A stretch of DNA of 64,000 nucleotides from Pricia mediterranea. GTDB lineage: Bacteria > Bacteroidota > Bacteroidia > Flavobacteriales > Flavobacteriaceae. Below are positions 17,691-63,896 of the stretch, in pieces. The notes under the pieces were generated by a model. It had not been told where the DNA came from and searched no databases. It was given only the letters and a program-made list of their open reading frames with translations. A program made the translations under genes and the position numbers. The DNA lies in NCBI RefSeq assembly GCF_032248455.1, contig NZ_JAVTTP010000001.1:1054001-1118000 (forward strand), given 5' to 3'. Position 1 is the first letter of the stretch; every line of letters begins with the position of its first letter.

Positions 17691-17777
17691 TTCTTAAGGT
17701 ATTGAAAGCGTGACTATGAATTAAGGCTTATCCTTCGATAATCGTAAATTACGCTTTCGTGAAAAATATAGTGATTG

Positions 17778-18212
17778 TTAAACTCTTCTTCGTTTGGGCG
17801 GTCTGCACCCGTTGTGCGGTTGTGGGGTAACATCAATGATCTCGGTGACCTCGATGCCTGAATTGTGCACGGCACGTATAGCGGATTCCCTACCGTTACC
17901 GGGCCCCTTTACATACACCTTCACCTTTCTAAGTCCCGCATCATGTGCTGTTCTAGAGCATTCTTCGGCCGCCACCTGAGCGGCGTAGGGTGTATTCTTT
18001 TTCGACCCCCTAAATCCCATCTTCCCTGCGGATGCCCATGAAACGACATCGCCCTTTTTATTGGTCAGGGATATGATAATATTATTGAATGATGCCGTGA
18101 TATGCGCCTCGCCTACCGAGTCGACGTTTACCTTGCGCTTTTTGGCCGCAGCTTTAGCGGCTTTTCCGCCTTTAGCCCCTTTTGCGCTCCCTTTTGTAGT
18201 TGCCTTTGCCAT
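17778..18212 (-). CDS. rpsK: Ribosomal protein S11 with an Ala/Gly/Lys N-terminal extension
   Basis: 144 aa, about 15 longer than usual. The extra part is a low-complexity stretch at residues 2-26 ([20 protein letters not shown] and onwards) before the canonical [19 protein letters not shown]. The C-terminal [13 protein letters not shown] is conserved. It belongs to the platform of the small subunit. The start codon is preceded at 10 nt by a 7-nt periodic tract. Confidence 0.97.
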
Positions 18213-18221
18213 TCTATTTTG

Positions 18222-18330
18222 TTAGTATTAAGTATTGAGTATTGAGTAGTTAGTACAACTGGCCAAAGGCCATCTACTCAATACGAAGTACTTTGTACTT
18301 TGTACTTTGTACTCAGTACTTTGTACTTTT
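18222..18330. repeat. Paired 7-nt periodic tracts in the rpsM-rpsK spacer
   Basis: Tract 1 (18222-18256, before rpsK): TTAGTAT, TAAGTAT, TGAGTAT, TGAGTAG, TTAGTAC. Tract 2 (18289-18330, touching the rpsM stop): TACTTTG three times, TACTCAG, TACTTTG, TACTTTT. The two are largely complementary. Between them lies a perfect 11-bp inverted repeat GTATTGAGTAG (18239-18249) / CTACTCAATAC (18274-18284) enclosing TGGCC-AAA-GGCCA (18260-18272). The whole spacer could form a cruciform or an RNA hairpin. Confidence 0.8.
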
Positions 18331-18332
18331 GA

Positions 18333-18707
18333 TTACTTGGTCACTTTCTTCTTGTTAGCAACCGTCTTTCTTTTTCCTTTACGCGTCCTAGAGTTGTTCT
18401 TGGTCCGTTGTCCGCGTAGCGGAAGACCGGTTCTATGGCGGATACCGCGGTAACAACCGATATCCATCAAACGTTTGATGTTCATCTGGGTTTCGGAACG
18501 CAGCTCGCCCTCGATAGTGTACGAGTTGACCTGTTTACGGATTCGCCCTATCTCATCATCATTCCAGTCGGAGACTTTTGTGCCCTCGTCTACTTCCGCT
18601 TTTTCCAAAATCTCTTTAGCCCTACTTTTGCCGACACCAAAAATATAGGTGAGCGCAATTACGCCCCTCTTTTGTTTAGGTATATCAATACCTGCGATTC
18701 TTGCCAT
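18333..18707 (-). CDS. rpsM: Ribosomal protein S13
   Basis: 124 aa. It begins [26 protein letters not shown] (head protein contacting the P-site tRNA and bridging to L5) and ends in the basic tail [24 protein letters not shown]. The helix-two-turn-helix region [13 protein letters not shown] is conserved. It is flanked on both sides by periodic spacer tracts. Confidence 0.98.
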
Positions 18708-18713
18708 AACTAT

Positions 18714-18825
18714 TTAGTCTTTAGTCAATATCCGTTGGCCGTTAGTGGTTTGTATTAAACCCTGGAAACCTTTTGAAATATCCAACTTTTCTAACGTCGA
18801 ACGTCTAATTACTGACGTCTAATTT
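18714..18825. repeat. Paired 7-nt periodic tracts in the rpmJ-rpsM spacer
   Basis: Tract 1 (18714-18748, before rpsM): TTAGTCT, TTAGTCA, ATATCCG, TTGGCCG, TTAGTGG. Tract 2 (18791-18825, overlapping the rpmJ stop): CTAACGT, CGAACGT, CTAATTA, CTGACGT, CTAATTT. In mRNA sense tract 2 carries TTAG units and tract 1 carries CTAA units. Confidence 0.7.
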
Positions 18826-18940
18826 ATCCTTGTCTTTGTTTGAATCTAGGATTCTTTTTGTTGATTACGTACAGTCTGCCCTTTCTGCGTACAATTTTGC
18901 AGTCGGCACTTCTTTTCTTTACGGATGCTCTTACTTTCAT
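18824..18940 (-). CDS. rpmJ: Ribosomal protein L36, zinc-free variant
   Basis: 38 aa, [17 protein letters not shown], ending FKQRQG. The zinc ribbon of the C+ form needs C11, C14, C27 and H33; here they are S11, C14, N27 and F33, so metal binding is lost. This C-minus form is known as the zinc-independent paralogue in other bacteria. Here it is the copy in the main spc/alpha cluster. It lies between infA and rpsM in the normal order. Confidence 0.95.
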
Positions 18941-19057
18941 CGTATTATATTTTCCTTCGTCTTAAACTCTGGTTTTAACTCTAAGCTGGCGAACCACGAA
19001 CACATTAACTCAATATCCAATGTTCATGTTGGTAGGGTTCCAAATCTTTGAATCGAT

Positions 19058-19273
19058 TCAATACCTATATGTAATTCTAGCCTTGGTAAGGTCATAGGGA
19101 CTCATTTCCAATTTCACCTTATCACCCGGAAGCAATTTTATATAATGCATGCGCATCTTGCCCGAAATGTGGGCTGTCACCACATGTCCGTTTTCCAGCT
19201 CCACGCGGAACATGGCATTGGATAGGGCCTCGATTATACTTCCGTCTTGCTCTATTGCTGCTTGTTTAGCCAT
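19058..19273 (-). CDS. infA: Translation initiation factor IF-1
   Basis: 71 aa S1-like OB-fold protein ([22 protein letters not shown], then [37 protein letters not shown]). It occupies the ribosomal A site in initiation. It directly follows secY; the adk and map genes found between them in many bacteria are absent. Confidence 0.97.
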
Positions 19274-19285
19274 CTTTGTTTTAAT

Positions 19286-19313
19286 CGTTAGTCGTTAGTC
19301 GTTAGTCGTTAGT
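19286..19313. repeat. Four perfect CGTTAGT heptamers before infA
   Basis: CGTTAGT is repeated four times without error, 12 bp upstream of the infA start. On the sense strand this is (ACTAACG)4. It is the most regular member of the spacer-tract set, so recent slippage is likely. Confidence 0.85.
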
Positions 19314-19352
19314 CAGATTTTCCATCATTTAACGAATACAGACCACCGCCTG

Positions 19353-20699
19353 TTAAGCTACTTTTCTATTTTTTCCGGTCTTCATTAACCCGTCATAATG
19401 CCTGTTCAATAGGTAGGCATTCACCTGCTGTACCGTATCGATGGCTACGCCGACCATAATCAAAAGCGAAGTTCCGCCGTAGAATAGCGCCCAGCCGGAC
19501 TGAATATCCATCAATTTGACTACAATGGCGGGCAGTACTGCCAATATCGCCAAGAACACGGAACCGGGTAATGTAATCAATGACATAATTTTATCCAAGA
19601 AATCAGCGGTTTCTTTTCCAGGTCGGATACCGGGAATAAAACCACCGCTTCTTTTGAGATCATCGGCCATTTTGTTGGTCGGTACCGTAATAGCGGTGTA
19701 AAAATACGTGAATATGATAATCAACACCGCAAAGAGTATGTTGTAGGCCAAGCCAAAAATATCCTGAAAATTGACTTCCATCCACTGTCCCACTGCCGTG
19801 CTATTAAAGGACTTGCCTATCAAACTCGGCACGAACATAATCGCTTGGGCAAAGATAATTGGCATCACCCCGGATGCATTCAATTTTAACGGGATATACT
19901 GACGTGATCCCATAACGTTCTTTTCATATCCACCCGATGCCGTCCTTCGGGCGTACTGTACCGGTATCTGTCTGGTAGCCATCACCAGCAAAACGCTTGC
20001 CAAAATCACCAAGAACCAAAGGATTACCTCGATAAGGATAAACATTAGTCCTCCGGTATTATTCGTGGTTCTGGAAACGAACTCCTGAATAAACGATTGT
20101 GGCATGGTCGCGATAATTCCGATCATAATCAACAGTGAAATGCCGTTCCCTATTCCTTTATCCGAGATTTTCTCTCCAAGCCACATAGCGAACACACAGC
20201 CAGTGACCAGAATAATCACGGACGGAATCATAAAGTCAAGTCCGAGACCCTCTAAGAAAGCACTTTCGGGAACACCAAAAGCCGTTGGCAAGCTATACAA
20301 ATAAGCCGGTGCCTGGACGATACAGATACCAATAGTTAGCCATCGTGTAATCTGCGTCTTCGTTTTACGACCGCTCTCGCCTTCCTTATCCAGCTTTTGT
20401 AGATAGGGAATGGCGATGCTCATCAGTTGCACCACGATCGATGCCGAGATATAGGGCATGATTCCCAAGGCGAATATCGAAGCCTTGGCGAAGGCGCCGC
20501 CCGTAAAGGCATTTAAAAGGCCTAAAATTCCGGATTCGGTCCCGGATGCCAACTGATCTAGCTGCGAAGTATCGATACCCGGCAGCACGATTTGGGCACC
20601 GAACCGGTACACCAACAAAAGGCTGAGGGTAAGAAGAATCCTATTCCTCAGCTCTTCAATCTTCCACATGTTGGATATGGTCTCGAAAAATTTCTTCAT
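19353..20699 (-). CDS. secY: Protein translocase subunit SecY
   Basis: 448 aa inner-membrane protein with ten hydrophobic spans. It forms the translocon channel with SecE/SecG. Seen: the N-terminal amphipathic start MKKFFETISNMWKIEELRNRI, the plug region after TM1 (GIDTSQLDQLASGT), the TM5-6 region with RRTASGGYEKNVMGSRQYIPLK, and GFIPGIRPGKETADFLD before TM9. It lies 18 bp after rplO and 79 bp before infA. Confidence 0.98.
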   Translation of the reverse strand: MKKFFETISNMWKIEELRNRILLTLSLLLVYRFGAQIVLPGIDTSQLDQLASGTESGILGLLNAFTGGAFAKASIFALGIMPYISASIVVQLMSIAIPYLQKLDKEGESGRKTKTQITRWLTIGICIVQAPAYLYSLPTAFGVPESAFLEGLGLDFMIPSVIILVTGCVFAMWLGEKISDKGIGNGISLLIMIGIIATMPQSFIQEFVSRTTNNTGGLMFILIEVILWFLVILASVLLVMATRQIPVQYARRTASGGYEKNVMGSRQYIPLKLNASGVMPIIFAQAIMFVPSLIGKSFNSTAVGQWMEVNFQDIFGLAYNILFAVLIIIFTYFYTAITVPTNKMADDLKRSGGFIPGIRPGKETADFLDKIMSLITLPGSVFLAILAVLPAIVVKLMDIQSGWALFYGGTSLLIMVGVAIDTVQQVNAYLLNRHYDGLMKTGKNRKVA

Positions 20700-20717
20700 A
20701 GTTCGGTATGGTATGGC

Positions 20718-21170
20718 TTATAAATTTATTGCTTCTCCCCCGGCAGCTTCTATGGCTGCTTTGGCACTTGCCGTAAATTTATGCGCGGTAACTTTAAGGG
20801 AGGCCTTTAACTCTCCTCCTCCTAATATTTTTACCTTATCCTTTTTCTTGGCCATTCCGTTTTCAATCAATGTATCGAAATTGACAGTATCATTGACCGT
20901 TTTGTTGTCAACAAGCATTTGCAGTTTGTCCAGGTTGACCCCTTGATACTCCACTCGGTTTCTATTGGTAAAACCGAACTTGGGGACCCGTCGTTGCAAC
21001 GGCATTTGACCCCCTTCAAAACCGATTTTCTTAGAGTAACCAGATCTTGATTGAGCGCCTTTATGACCTCTAGTGGAGGTACCGCCTTTGCCGGATCCTT
21101 CTCCCCGGCCCACTCTTTTAGAACTTCTTTTAACGGCGCCTTTCGCTGGCTTTAAATTACTTAAATCCAT
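20718..21170 (-). CDS. rplO: Ribosomal protein L15
   Basis: 150 aa. The glycine/arginine-rich N-terminal extension (KGAVKRSSKRVGRGEGSGKG...SRSGYSKKIGFEGGQMPLQRR) threads into 23S rRNA, followed by the globular L18e-like domain with VNLDKLQML and ILGGGELKASLKVTAHKFT. It follows rpmD by 12 bp. Confidence 0.98.
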   Translation of the reverse strand: MDLSNLKPAKGAVKRSSKRVGRGEGSGKGGTSTRGHKGAQSRSGYSKKIGFEGGQMPLQRRVPKFGFTNRNRVEYQGVNLDKLQMLVDNKTVNDTVNFDTLIENGMAKKKDKVKILGGGELKASLKVTAHKFTASAKAAIEAAGGEAINL

Positions 21171-21182
21171 AATATTGTCTCC

Positions 21183-21365
21183 TTAAGCTTCCTGCACGGA
21201 AACCAAATGTTTAACTTTATCAATCATGCCACGTATGTTAGGGGTGGCATCGTGCTCCACGACCTGGCCGATTTTATGTAACCCTAATGCGGCGAGGGTA
21301 CGCTTTTGGTTTTGCGGTCTTTTAATACCGCTTCTTGTTTGCTTAACCTGTATCTTCTTTGCCAT
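21183..21365 (-). CDS. rpmD: Ribosomal protein L30
   Basis: 60 aa, complete (MAKKIQVKQTRSGIKRPQNQKRTLAALGLHKIGQVVEHDATPNIRGMIDKVKHLVSV). A small large-subunit protein of the short bacterial type. A periodic tract begins 5 bp upstream of its ATG. Confidence 0.97.
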   Translation of the reverse strand: MAKKIQVKQTRSGIKRPQNQKRTLAALGLHKIGQVVEHDATPNIRGMIDKVKHLVSVQEA

Positions 21366-21370
21366 TCTTT

Positions 21371-21470
21371 TTAGTATTTAGTATTGAGTATTGAGTATTT
21401 AGATTTGCTTTCTTGTATAAAACCTTCCTAAACCATTATACTTAATACTTTGTACTTAATACGTTGTACT
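21371..21470. repeat. Paired 7-nt periodic tracts in the rpsE-rpmD spacer
   Basis: Tract 1 (21371-21405): TTAGTAT twice, TGAGTAT twice, TTAGATT. Tract 2 (21439-21470, four bases from the rpsE stop): TACTTAA, TACTTTG, TACTTAA, TACGTTG, TACT. The reverse complement of tract 1 (ATACTAA, ATACTCA) resembles tract 2, the same layout as in the rpsM-rpsK spacer. Confidence 0.78.
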
Positions 21471-21474
21471 ATTT

Positions 21475-22002
21475 TTATCCTTTAAAAACTTTTTCCAACG
21501 AAACGCCCCTTTGTTTAGCGACCTCTCCTGCATCCCTAAGTTGCAAAAGTGCGTCAAAGGTTGCCTTCACTACGTTATGCGGGTTGGAAGAGCCCTGGGA
21601 TTTCGACAACACGTCCTTTACTCCAACGGACTCCAGTACCGCTCGCACGGGTCCGCCTGCAATTACACCTGTACCATGAGAGGCAGGCTGAACATATACC
21701 CGGGCACCGGCGTACTTCCCTTTTTGCTCATGTGGTAGAGTGCCGCTATTGGTCAACGGAATGCGGATCAGGTTCTTTTTGGCATCCTCTATCGCTTTGG
21801 CAATGGCCGTAGCCACTTCCTTGGATTTTCCCAAACCGTTTCCGACAACCCCATTTTCATCGCCTACGATTACAATAGCGGAAAAGCCAAACGCCCTTCC
21901 CCCTTTGGTAACCTTGGTTACACGTTGAATACCGACCAATCGGTCTTTGAGGTCGAGGCCTCCGGGTTTAACCCTCTCTACGTTTTTGTATTTATGGAAC
22001 AT
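21475..22002 (-). CDS. rpsE: Ribosomal protein S5
   Basis: 175 aa. An N-terminal double-stranded RNA-binding-like domain ([25 protein letters not shown]) is followed by the C-terminal domain with [36 protein letters not shown]. It acts in translational fidelity at the mRNA entry side. The stop is 8 bp after that of the upstream frame's gene rplR. Confidence 0.98.
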
Positions 22003-22010
22003 ACTGCTAT

Positions 22011-22367
22011 TTAAAATTTTAGTCCTGCTTCCCTTGCCCCTTCGGCCAAGGATTTTACCCTTCCGTGGTAAAGATTTCCGCCACGATCAAAAGCTACTTT
22101 ATCGATGCCTGCTTCTTTACATTTTTCAGCGATGGCCTTACCGACCTTCTTTGCAATTTCACTCTTCGTGCCTTTCTCCTGGGCTAAATCTTTGTCCCTG
22201 GAAGAGGCTTGTACCAAAGTTTTACCAAGGGTATCATCAATAATTTGAACGTAAATCTCGCTGTTACTCCTGAATACAGACAGCCTCGGCCGTTCGGCAG
22301 TACCGGAGGAAACCTTTCGGATTCTTCTTCGTATTCGTTTTTTTCTTTCGCTAGTTGATATTGACAT
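22011..22367 (-). CDS. rplR: Ribosomal protein L18
   Basis: 118 aa from the ATG at 22367 ([34 protein letters not shown]). A longer frame extends upstream into rplF but adds residues with no L18 similarity, so the shorter start is chosen. It binds 5S rRNA with L5. The C-terminal [21 protein letters not shown] is conserved. Confidence 0.97.
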
Positions 22368-22377
22368 GATGTGCTTA

Positions 22378-22920
22378 TTACGCTGATTTACCTGCTTTTC
22401 TTCGTAGTTGTTCCCCCACAAACTTAACACCTTTACCTTTATAGGGTTCCGGTTTTCGGAAAGACCTAATCTTGGCGGCCACCTGCCCTACCAGCTGCTT
22501 ATCGTGTGACGTCAATTTGATGATGGGGTTCTTACCTTTTTCGGAGGTAGTCTCTATTTTCACCTCGGGCGCCAAGTTCAAAACGATGTTATGGGAAAAA
22601 CCCAGGGCAAGATCTAATTTCTGACCTTGATTGCTCGCGCGGTAGCCTACGCCGACCAATTCAAGCTCTTTCGTCCAGCCTTTAGAAACACCTTCAATCA
22701 TATTTACGATCAATGACCGGTAAAGGCCATGCTTCGCTTTATTCTCTATCGCATCTGATGGACGGGTGACCCATACTTGATTATCTTCCACCTTGATTTC
22801 GACCGCGGAGTACTCTTGGGACAACTCGCCCAGTTTTCCCTTAACCACAATCTCGTTGTCTTTTACGTCCACACTCACTCCCTCGGGAATGGCTATCGGA
22901 TTATTACCTACTCTTGACAT
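22378..22920 (-). CDS. rplF: Ribosomal protein L6
   Basis: 180 aa with two repeated L6 domains. The C-terminal signature region [25 protein letters not shown] is complete. It binds near the sarcin-ricin loop and the GTPase centre. It is separated from rplR by 10 bp. Confidence 0.98.
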
Positions 22921-22925
22921 TTCTA

Positions 22926-23010
22926 TTCGTATTTAGTAGTTAGTACAAAGCTTTAGTACTATCGTTGTGAAAAAACTGAACCTACTTTGTACTCAGTACG
23001 CAGTACCTTA
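22926..23010. repeat. Paired 7-nt periodic tracts in the rpsH-rplF spacer
   Basis: Tract 1 (22926-22946): TTCGTAT, TTAGTAG, TTAGTAC. Tract 2 (22983-23010): TACTTTG, TACTCAG, TACGCAG, TACCTTA, ending near the rpsH stop (23018). The units are the same kind as in the rpsK and rpmD spacers. Confidence 0.7.
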
Positions 23011-23017
23011 TTTCATT

Positions 23018-23416
23018 TTAATAAACGTAGCAAAGTACCTCGCCACCTACATTTTCCTTTTTTGCCTGTTTACCGGTCATCACGCCGTGCGAGGTGGAGA
23101 CAACAGCTACTCCCAGGCCATTGAGGACCCTCGGTAAATCGTCGGACCCCGTATACTTTCGCAGGCCTGGCTTGCTCACCCGTTGTAATTTCCTAATCAC
23201 GGGCTCTTTGGTCAATTTATCGTATTTCAAGGCAATCTTGATCGAGGGCTGCACCTTGTCTTCTACAAATTTGTAGCTCAAGATGTAACCTTGGTCGAAT
23301 AAAATCTTCGTAATCTCTTTTTTAACCTTTGAGGCGGGAATCTCGACGACCCTATGACCTGCCCTACTGGCATTTCTGACCCGTGTTAAGTAATCTGCAA
23401 TAGTATCTGTAACCAT
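23018..23416 (-). CDS. rpsH: Ribosomal protein S8
   Basis: 132 aa, MVTDTIADYLTRVRNASRAGH, with the conserved C-terminal VLNGLGVAVVSTSHGVMTGKQAKKENVGGEVLCYVY. It binds the central domain of 16S rRNA and in enterobacteria represses the spc operon; a comparable target was not identified. Confidence 0.98.
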   Translation of the reverse strand: MVTDTIADYLTRVRNASRAGHRVVEIPASKVKKEITKILFDQGYILSYKFVEDKVQPSIKIALKYDKLTKEPVIRKLQRVSKPGLRKYTGSDDLPRVLNGLGVAVVSTSHGVMTGKQAKKENVGGEVLCYVY

Positions 23417-23422
23417 TTCAAT

Positions 23423-23457
23423 TTAGACGTTAGACGTTAAACCTTAGACCTTAGATT
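23423..23457. repeat. 7-nt periodic tract before rpsH
   Basis: TTAGACG twice, TTAAACC, TTAGACC, TTAGATT, starting 7 bp upstream of the rpsH ATG. A partner tract before the rpsN stop is at best weak (AAGTTCG, AAACCTA, ATATCCA near 23484-23504). Confidence 0.7.
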
Positions 23458-23510
23458 TTTCCTCTGGCCTTGCTTTGCAAATCCAAGTTCGAAACCTAAT
23501 ATCCATCTTT

Positions 23511-23780
23511 TTACCAAGAAGCTTTTTTTACTCCCGGAATCAATCCCGCATTGGCCATTTCCCTGAACATAACCCTCGAAATTCCAAAGGTACGCATGTA
23601 CCCTCTTGGACGACCGGTCAACTTGCATCGATTGTGCATACGCACAGGGGATGCATCCCGCGGTAATTTTTGCAAGCCTTCGTAATCACCGGCTTCTTTC
23701 AAGGCCTTACGTTTCTCCGCATATTTCGCTACCGTGGCCGCTCTCTTTCGCTCTCGGGCCTTCATTGATTCTTTAGCCAT
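23511..23780 (-). CDS. rpsN: Ribosomal protein S14, long zinc-free form
   Basis: 89 aa. The zinc-binding short form has two CxxC pairs; this one has only C52 ([22 protein letters not shown]) and is the longer C-minus type. It sits in the 30S head. It is separated by one base from the rplE stop side and precedes rpsH. Confidence 0.97.
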
Positions 23781-30751: not shown

Positions 30752-30762
30752 GCTTTCAAATA

Positions 30763-30835
30763 GTTTATGAGTTTATGAGTTTAGAAGTTTAAAAAAACCC
30801 GCTCATATACTGCCTACTGCTTAATGTTTACTGTC
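30763..30835. repeat. Octamer tract before rpsJ and heptamer tract after fusA
   Basis: 30763-30794: GTTTATGA twice, GTTTAGAA, GTTTAAAA. 30808-30835: TACTGCC, TACTGCT, TAATGTT, TACTGTC, ending at the fusA stop (30836). The two halves of this spacer use different units and periods. Confidence 0.7.
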
Positions 30836-33530: not shown

Positions 33531-33542
33531 TGCTTTCTTTAG

Positions 33543-33612
33543 TTAATGGTTATTCGTCAATGGTCAAAAGAACTATACCCTCACCCATTGACCTTTAACT
33601 TTTAACCTTTAA
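33543..33612. repeat. Paired 7-nt periodic tracts in the rpsL-rpsG spacer
   Basis: Tract 1 (33543-33570): TTAATGG, TTATTCG, TCAATGG, TCAAAAG. Tract 2 (33585-33612): CCATTGA, CCTTTAA, CTTTTAA, CCTTTAA, running into the rpsL stop (33609-33611). TCAATGG of tract 1 and CCATTGA of tract 2 are exact complements. Confidence 0.78.
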
Positions 33613-63565: not shown

Positions 63566-63573
63566 TACATTTG
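63566..63573 (+). promoter_or_regulatory. -7 box (TACATTTG) of rpsO
   Basis: Perfect TAnnTTTG. The 12-mer TCTTACATTTGC around it is identical to the one in the rpsL promoter. Confidence 0.6.
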
Positions 63574-63578
63574 CACGC

Positions 63579-63595
63579 TGGCCGAAAAGCGGCCA
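63579..63595 (+). other. 5'-leader hairpin of rpsO
   Basis: TGGCCG-AAAAG-CGGCCA, a perfect GC-rich 6-bp stem about 6 bp after the -7 box, so at or near the mRNA 5' end. It may stabilise the transcript or serve S15 autocontrol; neither is shown. Confidence 0.5.
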
Positions 63596-63626
63596 CATAC
63601 ATAAAGATCATTAAAATAATATTGGC

Positions 63627-63896
63627 ATGTATTTAACCAAGGAAGTAAAAGCCGACATCTTTCAAAAGTATGGCGGAAAAGCGGAGAACACAGGTTCTAC
63701 CGAAGGGCAAATCGCCCTGTTCACCCATCGAATCAACCACCTTTCGGGGCATTTGAAAAGCAATCAGAAGGATTACAATACCGAGCGCTCGCTGGTTCGA
63801 TTGGTAGGTAAAAGACGTGATCTTCTCGATTATTTGATGAAAAAGGATGTTGTTCGCTATCGTGAACTTATCAAAGAACTCAAAATCAGGAAATAA
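63627..63896 (+). CDS. rpsO: Ribosomal protein S15
   Basis: 89 aa, four-helix protein (MYLTKEVKADIFQKYGGKAENTGSTEGQIALFTHRINHLSGHLKSNQKDYNTERSLVRLVGKRRDLLDYLMKKDVVRYRELIKELKIRK). It binds the central domain of 16S rRNA. Own promoter with a hairpin leader, own terminator. Confidence 0.98.
   Translation: MYLTKEVKADIFQKYGGKAENTGSTEGQIALFTHRINHLSGHLKSNQKDYNTERSLVRLVGKRRDLLDYLMKKDVVRYRELIKELKIRK

Follow-up and report, generated by a model that had tools for sequence, protein, structure and literature searches.

Why are the gaps between adjacent ribosomal-protein (r-protein) genes bracketed by short repeats that are complementary to each other? This question is raised by the rpsM-rpsK intercistronic spacer of Pricia mediterranea, located in a stretch of 64,000 nucleotides (nt) that was analysed as a whole and is referred to below as the window (NZ_JAVTTP010000001.1, positions 1,054,001 to 1,118,000). 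The window belongs to contig C1 (4.27 Mb), in a genome of 4.57 Mb, and its SecY protein shares 94% identity with SecY of Pricia antarctica. The same-genus relatives used for comparison were P. antarctica DSM 23421 and the metagenome-assembled genome HyVt-345. At the level of sequence, the between-gene spacers of r-protein and ATP-synthase operons often hold two complementary heptamer tracts, and these probably form a selected intercistronic RNA hairpin, which would fold the untranslated spacer away and spare the last nucleotides before the next start codon.

The rpsM-rpsK spacer sits within the r-protein operon, on the minus strand, and its features are as follows:

17778-18212, minus strand: rpsK
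18333-18707, minus strand: rpsM
18213..18332, minus strand: rpsM-rpsK intercistronic spacer (120 nt), a central hairpin flanked by two inverted heptamer arms, as judged by its fold, swap tests and an 11-base-pair (bp) repeat
about 18282..18329, minus strand: stop-proximal arm, a TACTTTG/TACTCAG tract adjoining the rpsM stop codon (AGTACAA/AGTACTG heptamers on the coding strand)
18222..18255, minus strand: start-proximal arm, a TTAGTAT/TGAGTAT tract adjoining the rpsK start codon (TACTAAC/TACTCAA heptamers on the coding strand)
18239..18249, minus strand: first half of a perfect 11-bp inverted repeat
18274..18284, minus strand: second half of this repeat
18260..18272, minus strand: inner hairpin TGGCC-3 nt-GGCCA, TGGCCAAAGGCCA

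On the coding strand, AGTANNN units follow the rpsM stop codon and TACTNNN units precede the rpsK start codon. An earlier note on this DNA had described two complementary heptamer tracts bracketing the spacer, and both are present, one by the rpsK start and the other by the rpsM stop. It had also placed a perfect 11-bp inverted repeat with an inner TGGCC/GGCCA between them; both of these exist, but the positions of the repeat halves show that the repeat is built from the inner units of the tracts and does not lie strictly between them. Of 300 dinucleotide-shuffled versions of the spacer, not one contained a perfect inverted repeat of at least 11 (mean 6.7). The coding-strand fold, in whose best structure the 11-bp stem is present, had a z-score of -5.33, and 0 of 200 shuffles folded as well.

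Matching of the two arms

The complementarity of the arms exceeds chance. In 25 two-arm spacers (31 before the removal of similar ones; two of the 25 are one continuous array), cognate arms gave -15.8 and swapped arms -10.5 kcal/mol, and none of 20,000 permutations reached the observed sum. The corresponding values were -15.7 vs -11.5 kcal/mol (0/20,000 permutations) for 37 r-protein spacers, reduced from 58, and -15.7 vs -10.8 kcal/mol (0/20,000) when swaps were made inside one genome only (46 spacers used of 70 selected, from 16 genomes with at least two); these three sets overlap. The number of expected inter-arm pairs in the 37 r-protein spacers was 17.8 vs 8.4 after shuffling, and in 60 other co-directional spacers 7.7 vs 8.1.

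The arms also change together. Among 78 taxa the rpsM-rpsK spacer is bimodal in length (below 20 nt in 45/78, 90-129 nt in 27/78), and the window and P. antarctica have AGTA/TACT arms there, HyVt-345 (68 nt) an AATTATT-type pair, and Muricauda, Cellulophaga, Kriegella and others TTAG/CTAA. Many heptamer families occur at a single junction, atpD-atpC, in the Flavobacteriaceae. The sample comprised 70 loci, the best-scoring among 144 genomes with an AtpC match, all of which match AtpD too; 45 of the spacers measure 45-110 nt and were used, 24 are shorter and one has 138 nt. In the two arms identity at lag 7 was 0.46 and 0.59, vs 0.22-0.32 at other lags. The mean fold z was -3.53 (below -1.5 in 39/45 spacers), inter-arm expected pairs amounted to 15.9 vs 8.5 in shuffles, and cognate arms gave -16.4 vs -10.4 for swapped ones (0/20,000 permutations); related genera within the 70 genomes share some families, and the comparison was made without a tree. 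The atpD-atpC spacer of the window genome itself folds into helices of 6, 6, 4 and 9 bp separated by gaps of 1, 1 and 3 nt (z -4.41). In a second family of Flavobacteriales (f5) the same junction had a lag-7 identity of 0.56 and cognate arms at -16.3 vs -7.5 for swapped ones (0/20,000 permutations; 20 long spacers of 45-160 nt, out of 29 spacers read at 30 loci, of which 29 match AtpD, the exception lying outside the 20).

The earlier note had suggested compensatory maintenance of an RNA hairpin between cistrons. The joint change of family at shared junctions, together with five swap sets each with 0/20,000 permutations, supports this at the level of sequence, and a change of one tract without the other, which the note had named as its refutation, was mostly not what related spacers displayed, since the tracts switch family together at rpsM-rpsK and atpD-atpC.

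The period of seven is specific. Intergenic arrays in 864 kb of the window genome numbered 23 at lag 7, 3 at lag 8 and none at lags 5, 10, 11 and 13. Period 7 was present at both spacer ends in 23 of 1,032 co-directional spacers measuring 85-320 nt (from the own genome, P. antarctica and relatives), a count that takes in orthologous spacers, vs 3.4 expected from the ends taken separately. The four period-7 arrays beside starts in the window lie 0-9 nt from the start codon. Unrestricted counts of three-rung ladders were dropped as uninformative (55 of 1,400 co-directional spacers at lag 7 and 73 at lag 4, many matches being ordinary hairpins). Period-8 arrays of the GTTTATGA/TCATAAAC type were found in P. 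antarctica (contig C18, 179499-179654) and in the window (30762-30791). In P. antarctica two period-8 arrays are inverted and close together, and this pair suggests that the heptamer period is usual, not obligatory.

The order of the units is fixed. TTAG followed by CTAA was found in 45/149 genomes of the family and the reversed order in 9; AGTT followed by AACT in 32 and the reversed order in 6; and in the own genome AGTA>TACT had 16 matches vs 2 reversed. The layouts are concentrated between co-directional genes: of 34 TTAG places read, 28 were co-directional, 2 convergent, 0 divergent, 2 coding and 2 edge, and of 30 AGTT places 17 were co-directional, 2 convergent, 1 divergent, 3 coding and 7 edge. 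These places are the best among the matches listed and no random draw, and many TTAG ones repeat one junction across genera. A first contrast of start-proximal arrays with divergent ends (43/686 vs 3/326) included stretches of genomes G127 and G129, several of them picked for TTAG matches, and was therefore repeated without them and without the window. In the resulting set (own sample and 400 kb of P. antarctica, which include its r-protein operon; stretches not picked for repeats) such arrays occurred in 18/413 co-directional spacers vs 0/168 divergent ends (p 0.003).

Seven places of the own genome have the AGTA>TACT layout, namely rpsM-rpsK, rpsE-rpmD, rpsH-rplF, atpA-atpG, atpD-atpC and two spacers called convergent, one of which looks, by its sequence, like a recN-side junction. 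The seven differ in sequence, and dispersal of copies of one sequence was rejected for this reason. Looser cases occur at hisB-hisH and trpG-trpD. Relatives carry the AGTT layout at atpD-atpC (four genera) and rpsL-rpsG, and Pfam matches suggest further pairs: ETF beta-alpha, two PAPS-reductase-domain proteins, CysE-CysK, two Rnf/Nqr subunits, and a release factor followed by an ArsC-family gene. The AGTT junctions named here account for 10 of the 17 co-directional AGTT places.

Arrays of this kind could also be a mutational by-product, grown by slipped-strand events, inverted by template switching and tolerated in operon gaps, so that the arms would match as copies without any selection for the RNA fold. 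Single heptamer arrays of many families do occur in intergenic DNA, whole units come and go (the 116-nt rpmJ-rpsM spacer of the window measures 2 nt in each of the two same-genus relatives), and any mismatch in a tandem array recurs with each 7-nt unit, which gives the look of a ladder without selection. We nevertheless regard this origin as unlikely in view of the fixed order of G- and C-bearing units, the presence of start-proximal arrays in co-directional spacers and their absence from divergent ends, the end of the hairpin short of the start, and the arms that stay matched through many family changes at one junction.

Other spacers of the window and a conserved element of other genera

The remaining spacers of interest are given below; E-values refer to R1, a model of a conserved element of other genera.

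21366..21474, minus strand: rpsE-rpmD spacer, AGTA/TACT arms (fold z -3.47; arms z -5.83)
22921..23017, minus strand: rpsH-rplF spacer, AGTA/TACT arms (fold z +0.24, 112/200 shuffles as good; arms z -0.65)
18708..18823, minus strand: rpmJ-rpsM spacer, 116 nt, TTAGACG-type stop-proximal and GACTAAA-type start-proximal arm (z -1.55, 17/200 shuffles as good; arms z -1.96; E 0.016)
33531..33608, minus strand: rpsL-rpsG spacer (S12 and S7 gene products), a clear ladder, GGTTAAA/AGTTAAA vs AACCATT/AACTAAA (z -4.16)
19274..19352, minus strand: secY-infA spacer, start-proximal CGACTAA array with a weaker stop-proximal partner (z -2.21; arms z -1.43; E 0.49)
23417..23510, minus strand: rpsN-rpsH spacer, start-proximal CGTCTAA array without a clear partner arm (z -1.55)
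17691..17777, minus strand: rpsK-rpsD spacer with the known S4-Flavobacteria leader RF03141 at 17712-17743, an ordinary neighbour given as a contrast

The recurrence of the two-tract layout in four further spacers, as previously claimed, holds well for rpsE-rpmD and rpsL-rpsG and weakly for rpmJ-rpsM, but at rpsH-rplF the tracts are present and the spacer folds no better than shuffles. The window genome holds two arm families, AGTA/TACT (rpsM-rpsK, rpsE-rpmD, rpsH-rplF) and TTAG/CTAA (rpmJ-rpsM, secY-infA), and pairing tracks the family. No Rfam family matches the heptamer spacers of the window. The gene calls come from a simple caller of our own; a check of 14 window genes showed that it had overlooked rpmJ and made rplR too short.

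Several side observations concern the same region. The spacers at 18708-18823 (116 nt) and 18941-19057 (117 nt) measure 2 and 21 nt, respectively, in both same-genus relatives, which represents gain or loss of whole units. An intrinsic terminator (GC-rich stem and U run on the coding strand) was found in none of the heptamer spacers within 17700-23600, and a terminator reading was rejected on this basis; two terminator-like sites of the plus strand, 18282-18304 and 18801-18818, touch heptamer spacers. A leader of a known type, S15-Flavobacteria RF03161, is located at 63566-63629.

The rpsM-rpsK and rpmJ-rpsM spacers of other genera share one element, composed of TTAG heptads, a GAATCTGTTTGAAAT ... 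TTTAGGATTC core and CTAA heptads. RNAalifold predicts for it helices of 4, 4, 5 and 6 bp, with 3x3 and 2x2 loops between the first three and a large asymmetric loop before the innermost one. In total, 47 conserved elements were found (46 distinct), and 41 remained once 5 that carried a variant or long insertions downstream had been removed.

This element could be an autoregulatory r-protein leader that binds a ribosomal protein through its core. The core is nearly invariant, within a search that required it within few mismatches; R1 matches 50 of the 149 family genomes, usually once per genome; and the junctions precede rpsM and rpsK. A leader of this kind would explain that subset and not the window, and as an account of the heptamer spacers we give it little credence. 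R1 has no match in this genus and none in G000 and G001 at E 1e-4. In the window, searched up to E 10, three matches were obtained (E 0.016, 0.49 and 7.6), all in r-protein spacers on the coding strand, and the best of them lacks the core. Among 99 sampled genomes of the order there was one match, from the same family. No Rfam family fits the element, either at the gathering score (nine loci) or with E allowed up to 5 (one stretch). Another conserved element, CTGGTTTCAGGTT ... AAAACCGTTACC, precedes rpsH in the rpsN-rpsH spacers of relatives (e.g. L016, L026, L027 and L050) and was not seen in three Pricia-type genomes read; it is possibly another r-protein leader.

The start region and a candidate role of the probable hairpin

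The stem falls short of the start. When spacers were folded alone, the paired fraction of the last 12 nt before the start was 0.19 vs 0.41 in shuffles for the 37 r-protein spacers, and 0.35 vs 0.39 for the 60 other co-directional ones; for the last 10 nt before the atpC start it was 0.13 vs 0.39. Pairing beyond the upstream stop is 0.35 over nt 1-8 and climbs to 0.62 over nt 9-16. When coding flanks were included in the fold, the atpC ATG was paired at 0.436 in 46 long-spacer genomes vs 0.571 in 24 short-spacer genomes (p 0.018), and two neighbouring measures showed no difference.

These values bear on a classical start-occluding hairpin, whose stem would hide the downstream start until the ribosome finishing the upstream gene opens it. 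Such hairpins are described from other bacteria and phages in the available part of a review on translational coupling (PMC12548453), and the junctions studied here connect co-directional genes whose products belong to known complexes or pathways. In spacer-alone folds, however, pairing over the final 10-12 nt ahead of the start is lower than in shuffles, and with flanks the atpC ATG is paired less, rather than more, than in short-spacer genomes; the hairpin thus leaves the start uncovered, which makes start occlusion improbable.

In the reading that we favour, each full two-arm spacer would be an intercistronic RNA hairpin whose arms are built from a single heptamer family in inverted arrays. 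At their clearest, such spacers would form a ladder whose helices are short (mostly 4-6 bp), with internal loops of 1-3 nt and about one rung per 7 nt, in a stem starting some 8 nt past the upstream stop and ending roughly 10 nt short of the next start. Provided that the genes are co-transcribed and the spacer folds in the cell, the untranslated gap of the polycistronic mRNA would be folded out of the way, either shielded from Rho and RNases or with the stop kept near the start, and the downstream cistron would thereby still be translated in step. That the hairpin is under selection, which would preserve its pairing, seems to us likely. Given the hairpin, the proposed effect on expression, a gap folded away and a downstream cistron translated in step, has somewhat less than an even chance. 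Compaction that bridges stop and start was rejected, because the exterior path is no better than in shuffles; shielding from Rho or RNases and docking geometry are left as candidates, through either of which the spacers may function.

Several results weigh against this reading. The best fold of the window's rpsM-rpsK spacer falls short of a complete ladder, with the outer stop-proximal arm pairing within itself and the final 26 nt left single-stranded. The rpsH-rplF tracts are complementary over a stretch of about ten bases, and the whole spacer folds no better than shuffles. Arm z was below -1.5 in 23 of the 37 r-protein spacers, 14 falling short, and it pointed the wrong way in rpsM-rpsK of L057 (+1.06) and secY-infA of L081 (+0.62). 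Over all co-directional spacers there was almost no cognate preference (mean z -0.12 for 172 own spacers and -0.08 for 106 of P. antarctica), so that it was rejected as a general trait and the spacers with matched arms form a subset. Arrays without a partner exist, e.g. long single TTAGACG/TTAGACA arrays in the own genome (L108, 6228-6328; L113, 9381-9496), which indicates that arrays also expand alone. The own sample by itself gave 11/257 co-directional spacers vs 0/92 divergent ends (p 0.07). With coding flanks, the 10 nt before the atpC start were paired at 0.40 in long and 0.44 in short spacers (p 0.28), so the start is not unusually open when coding sequence is present. The exterior path of the 37 r-protein spacers measured 19.5 nt vs 20.0 nt in shuffles, with 5% at or below the 5% level of the shuffles (59% lay below the shuffle median, vs 30% of the 60 other spacers), and a stop and start brought together cannot be told from any RNA of that size. 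In one screen, as given in the available part of PMC12548453, structure right after the stop codon went with reduced coupling.

The check by folding and covariation proposed in the earlier note gave folds better than shuffles for rpsM-rpsK, rpsE-rpmD and rpsL-rpsG, but not for rpsH-rplF, and base-pair covariation in the conserved rpsM/rpsK element was weak. Alignment A1 (33 of the 41 elements, 8 minus-strand ones excluded) contained two-sided changes in 0 of 19 pairs. In alignment A2 (87 distinct rows, fitted to the structure, including divergent rows and two rows read on the antisense strand) 7 pairs had one two-sided cell each, a level reached by 0/500 shuffles. The element is too conserved for covariation to be judged, and its modelled structure is therefore plausible, not proven by covariation.

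Tentatively, and with rather more doubt than about the hairpin itself, the spacers may represent a Flavobacteriales-wide class of intercistronic RNA (two families), in which the period-7 ladder fold is kept and the heptamer is free. It would mark r-protein, ATP-synthase, ETF, Rnf/Nqr, cysteine, his and trp junctions, and may, in these bacteria without Shine-Dalgarno sequences, serve in the way that close stop-start spacing serves elsewhere.

Comparison with known systems

Hairpins of translational coupling (PMC12548453, as far as its available part goes) are likewise RNA structures between co-transcribed genes, beside a stop and a start; those hide the downstream ribosome site, whereas here the stem ends before it, the rungs recur every 7 nt and the sequence changes fast. 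The S4-Flavobacteria leader RF03141 and other r-protein leaders of Flavobacteria (PMC7247131) are also structured RNAs, found in the same operon and in an adjacent spacer of the window. Such leaders keep their sequence and presumably bind a single protein each, whereas the heptamer spacers vary among relatives and match no Rfam family; the leaders given in the accessible part of that paper for Flavobacteria are S4, S15 and S16, and none is given for rpsM or rpsK.

The heptamer spacers differ in sequence from one another within a genome. REP/BIME intercistronic palindromes and the STRR heptamers of cyanobacteria are between-gene repeats too, made of copies of one sequence. The heptamer spacers share this placement with them, but their sequences differ from spacer to spacer.

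The available portions of the literature describe Bacteroidota mRNAs without Shine-Dalgarno sequences (PMC6847099), and initiation in F. johnsoniae that is tuned by structure near the start and by certain upstream bases. If the pairing is functional, the spacers offer a testable answer to how Bacteroidota lacking Shine-Dalgarno sequences handle long gaps inside highly expressed operons. They would then constitute an RNA element defined by period and complementarity, not by sequence, which searches for sequence-based families would miss. Among the literature matches listed (titles and beginnings of abstracts, with most subscription papers and all preprints outside the scope) there was no description of paired heptamer arms, and the accessible part of one Flavobacterium psychrophilum transcriptome paper makes no mention of such hairpins.

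The closest likeness is to the TAACTGA heptamer direct repeats of Beggiatoaceae, Cyanobacteria and some Bacteroidetes, which, in the available part of their description, form single arrays before starts (MacGregor 2015, PMC4679880). They too have period 7, are intergenic, lie mostly just upstream of starts and occur in r-protein operons; one reversed set follows a stop in Flexibacter litoralis. As proposed for these repeats, each array might instead be a single-stranded site for an S1-, cold-shock- or Csr-type protein, the complementarity of the arms being incidental. The position of the TAACTGA heptamers just before starts, and of the reversed set just after a stop, would suit such sites; in our spacers, the units vary among spacers of one genome yet match within a spacer, and many families occur at one junction, which leaves protein binding only a slim chance. 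The rpsM-rpsK units of the window are TACTNNN and AGTANNN, not TAACTGA, and TAACTGA-like units are present in rpsE-rpmD of Muricauda (L038). In contrast to the TAACTGA repeats as described there, the spacers contain many units, set in two inverted arms with matching families, and a functional pairing of the predicted hairpin would recast heptamer repeats before start codons as half of a pair. Single heptamer arrays before starts are already known (MacGregor 2015).
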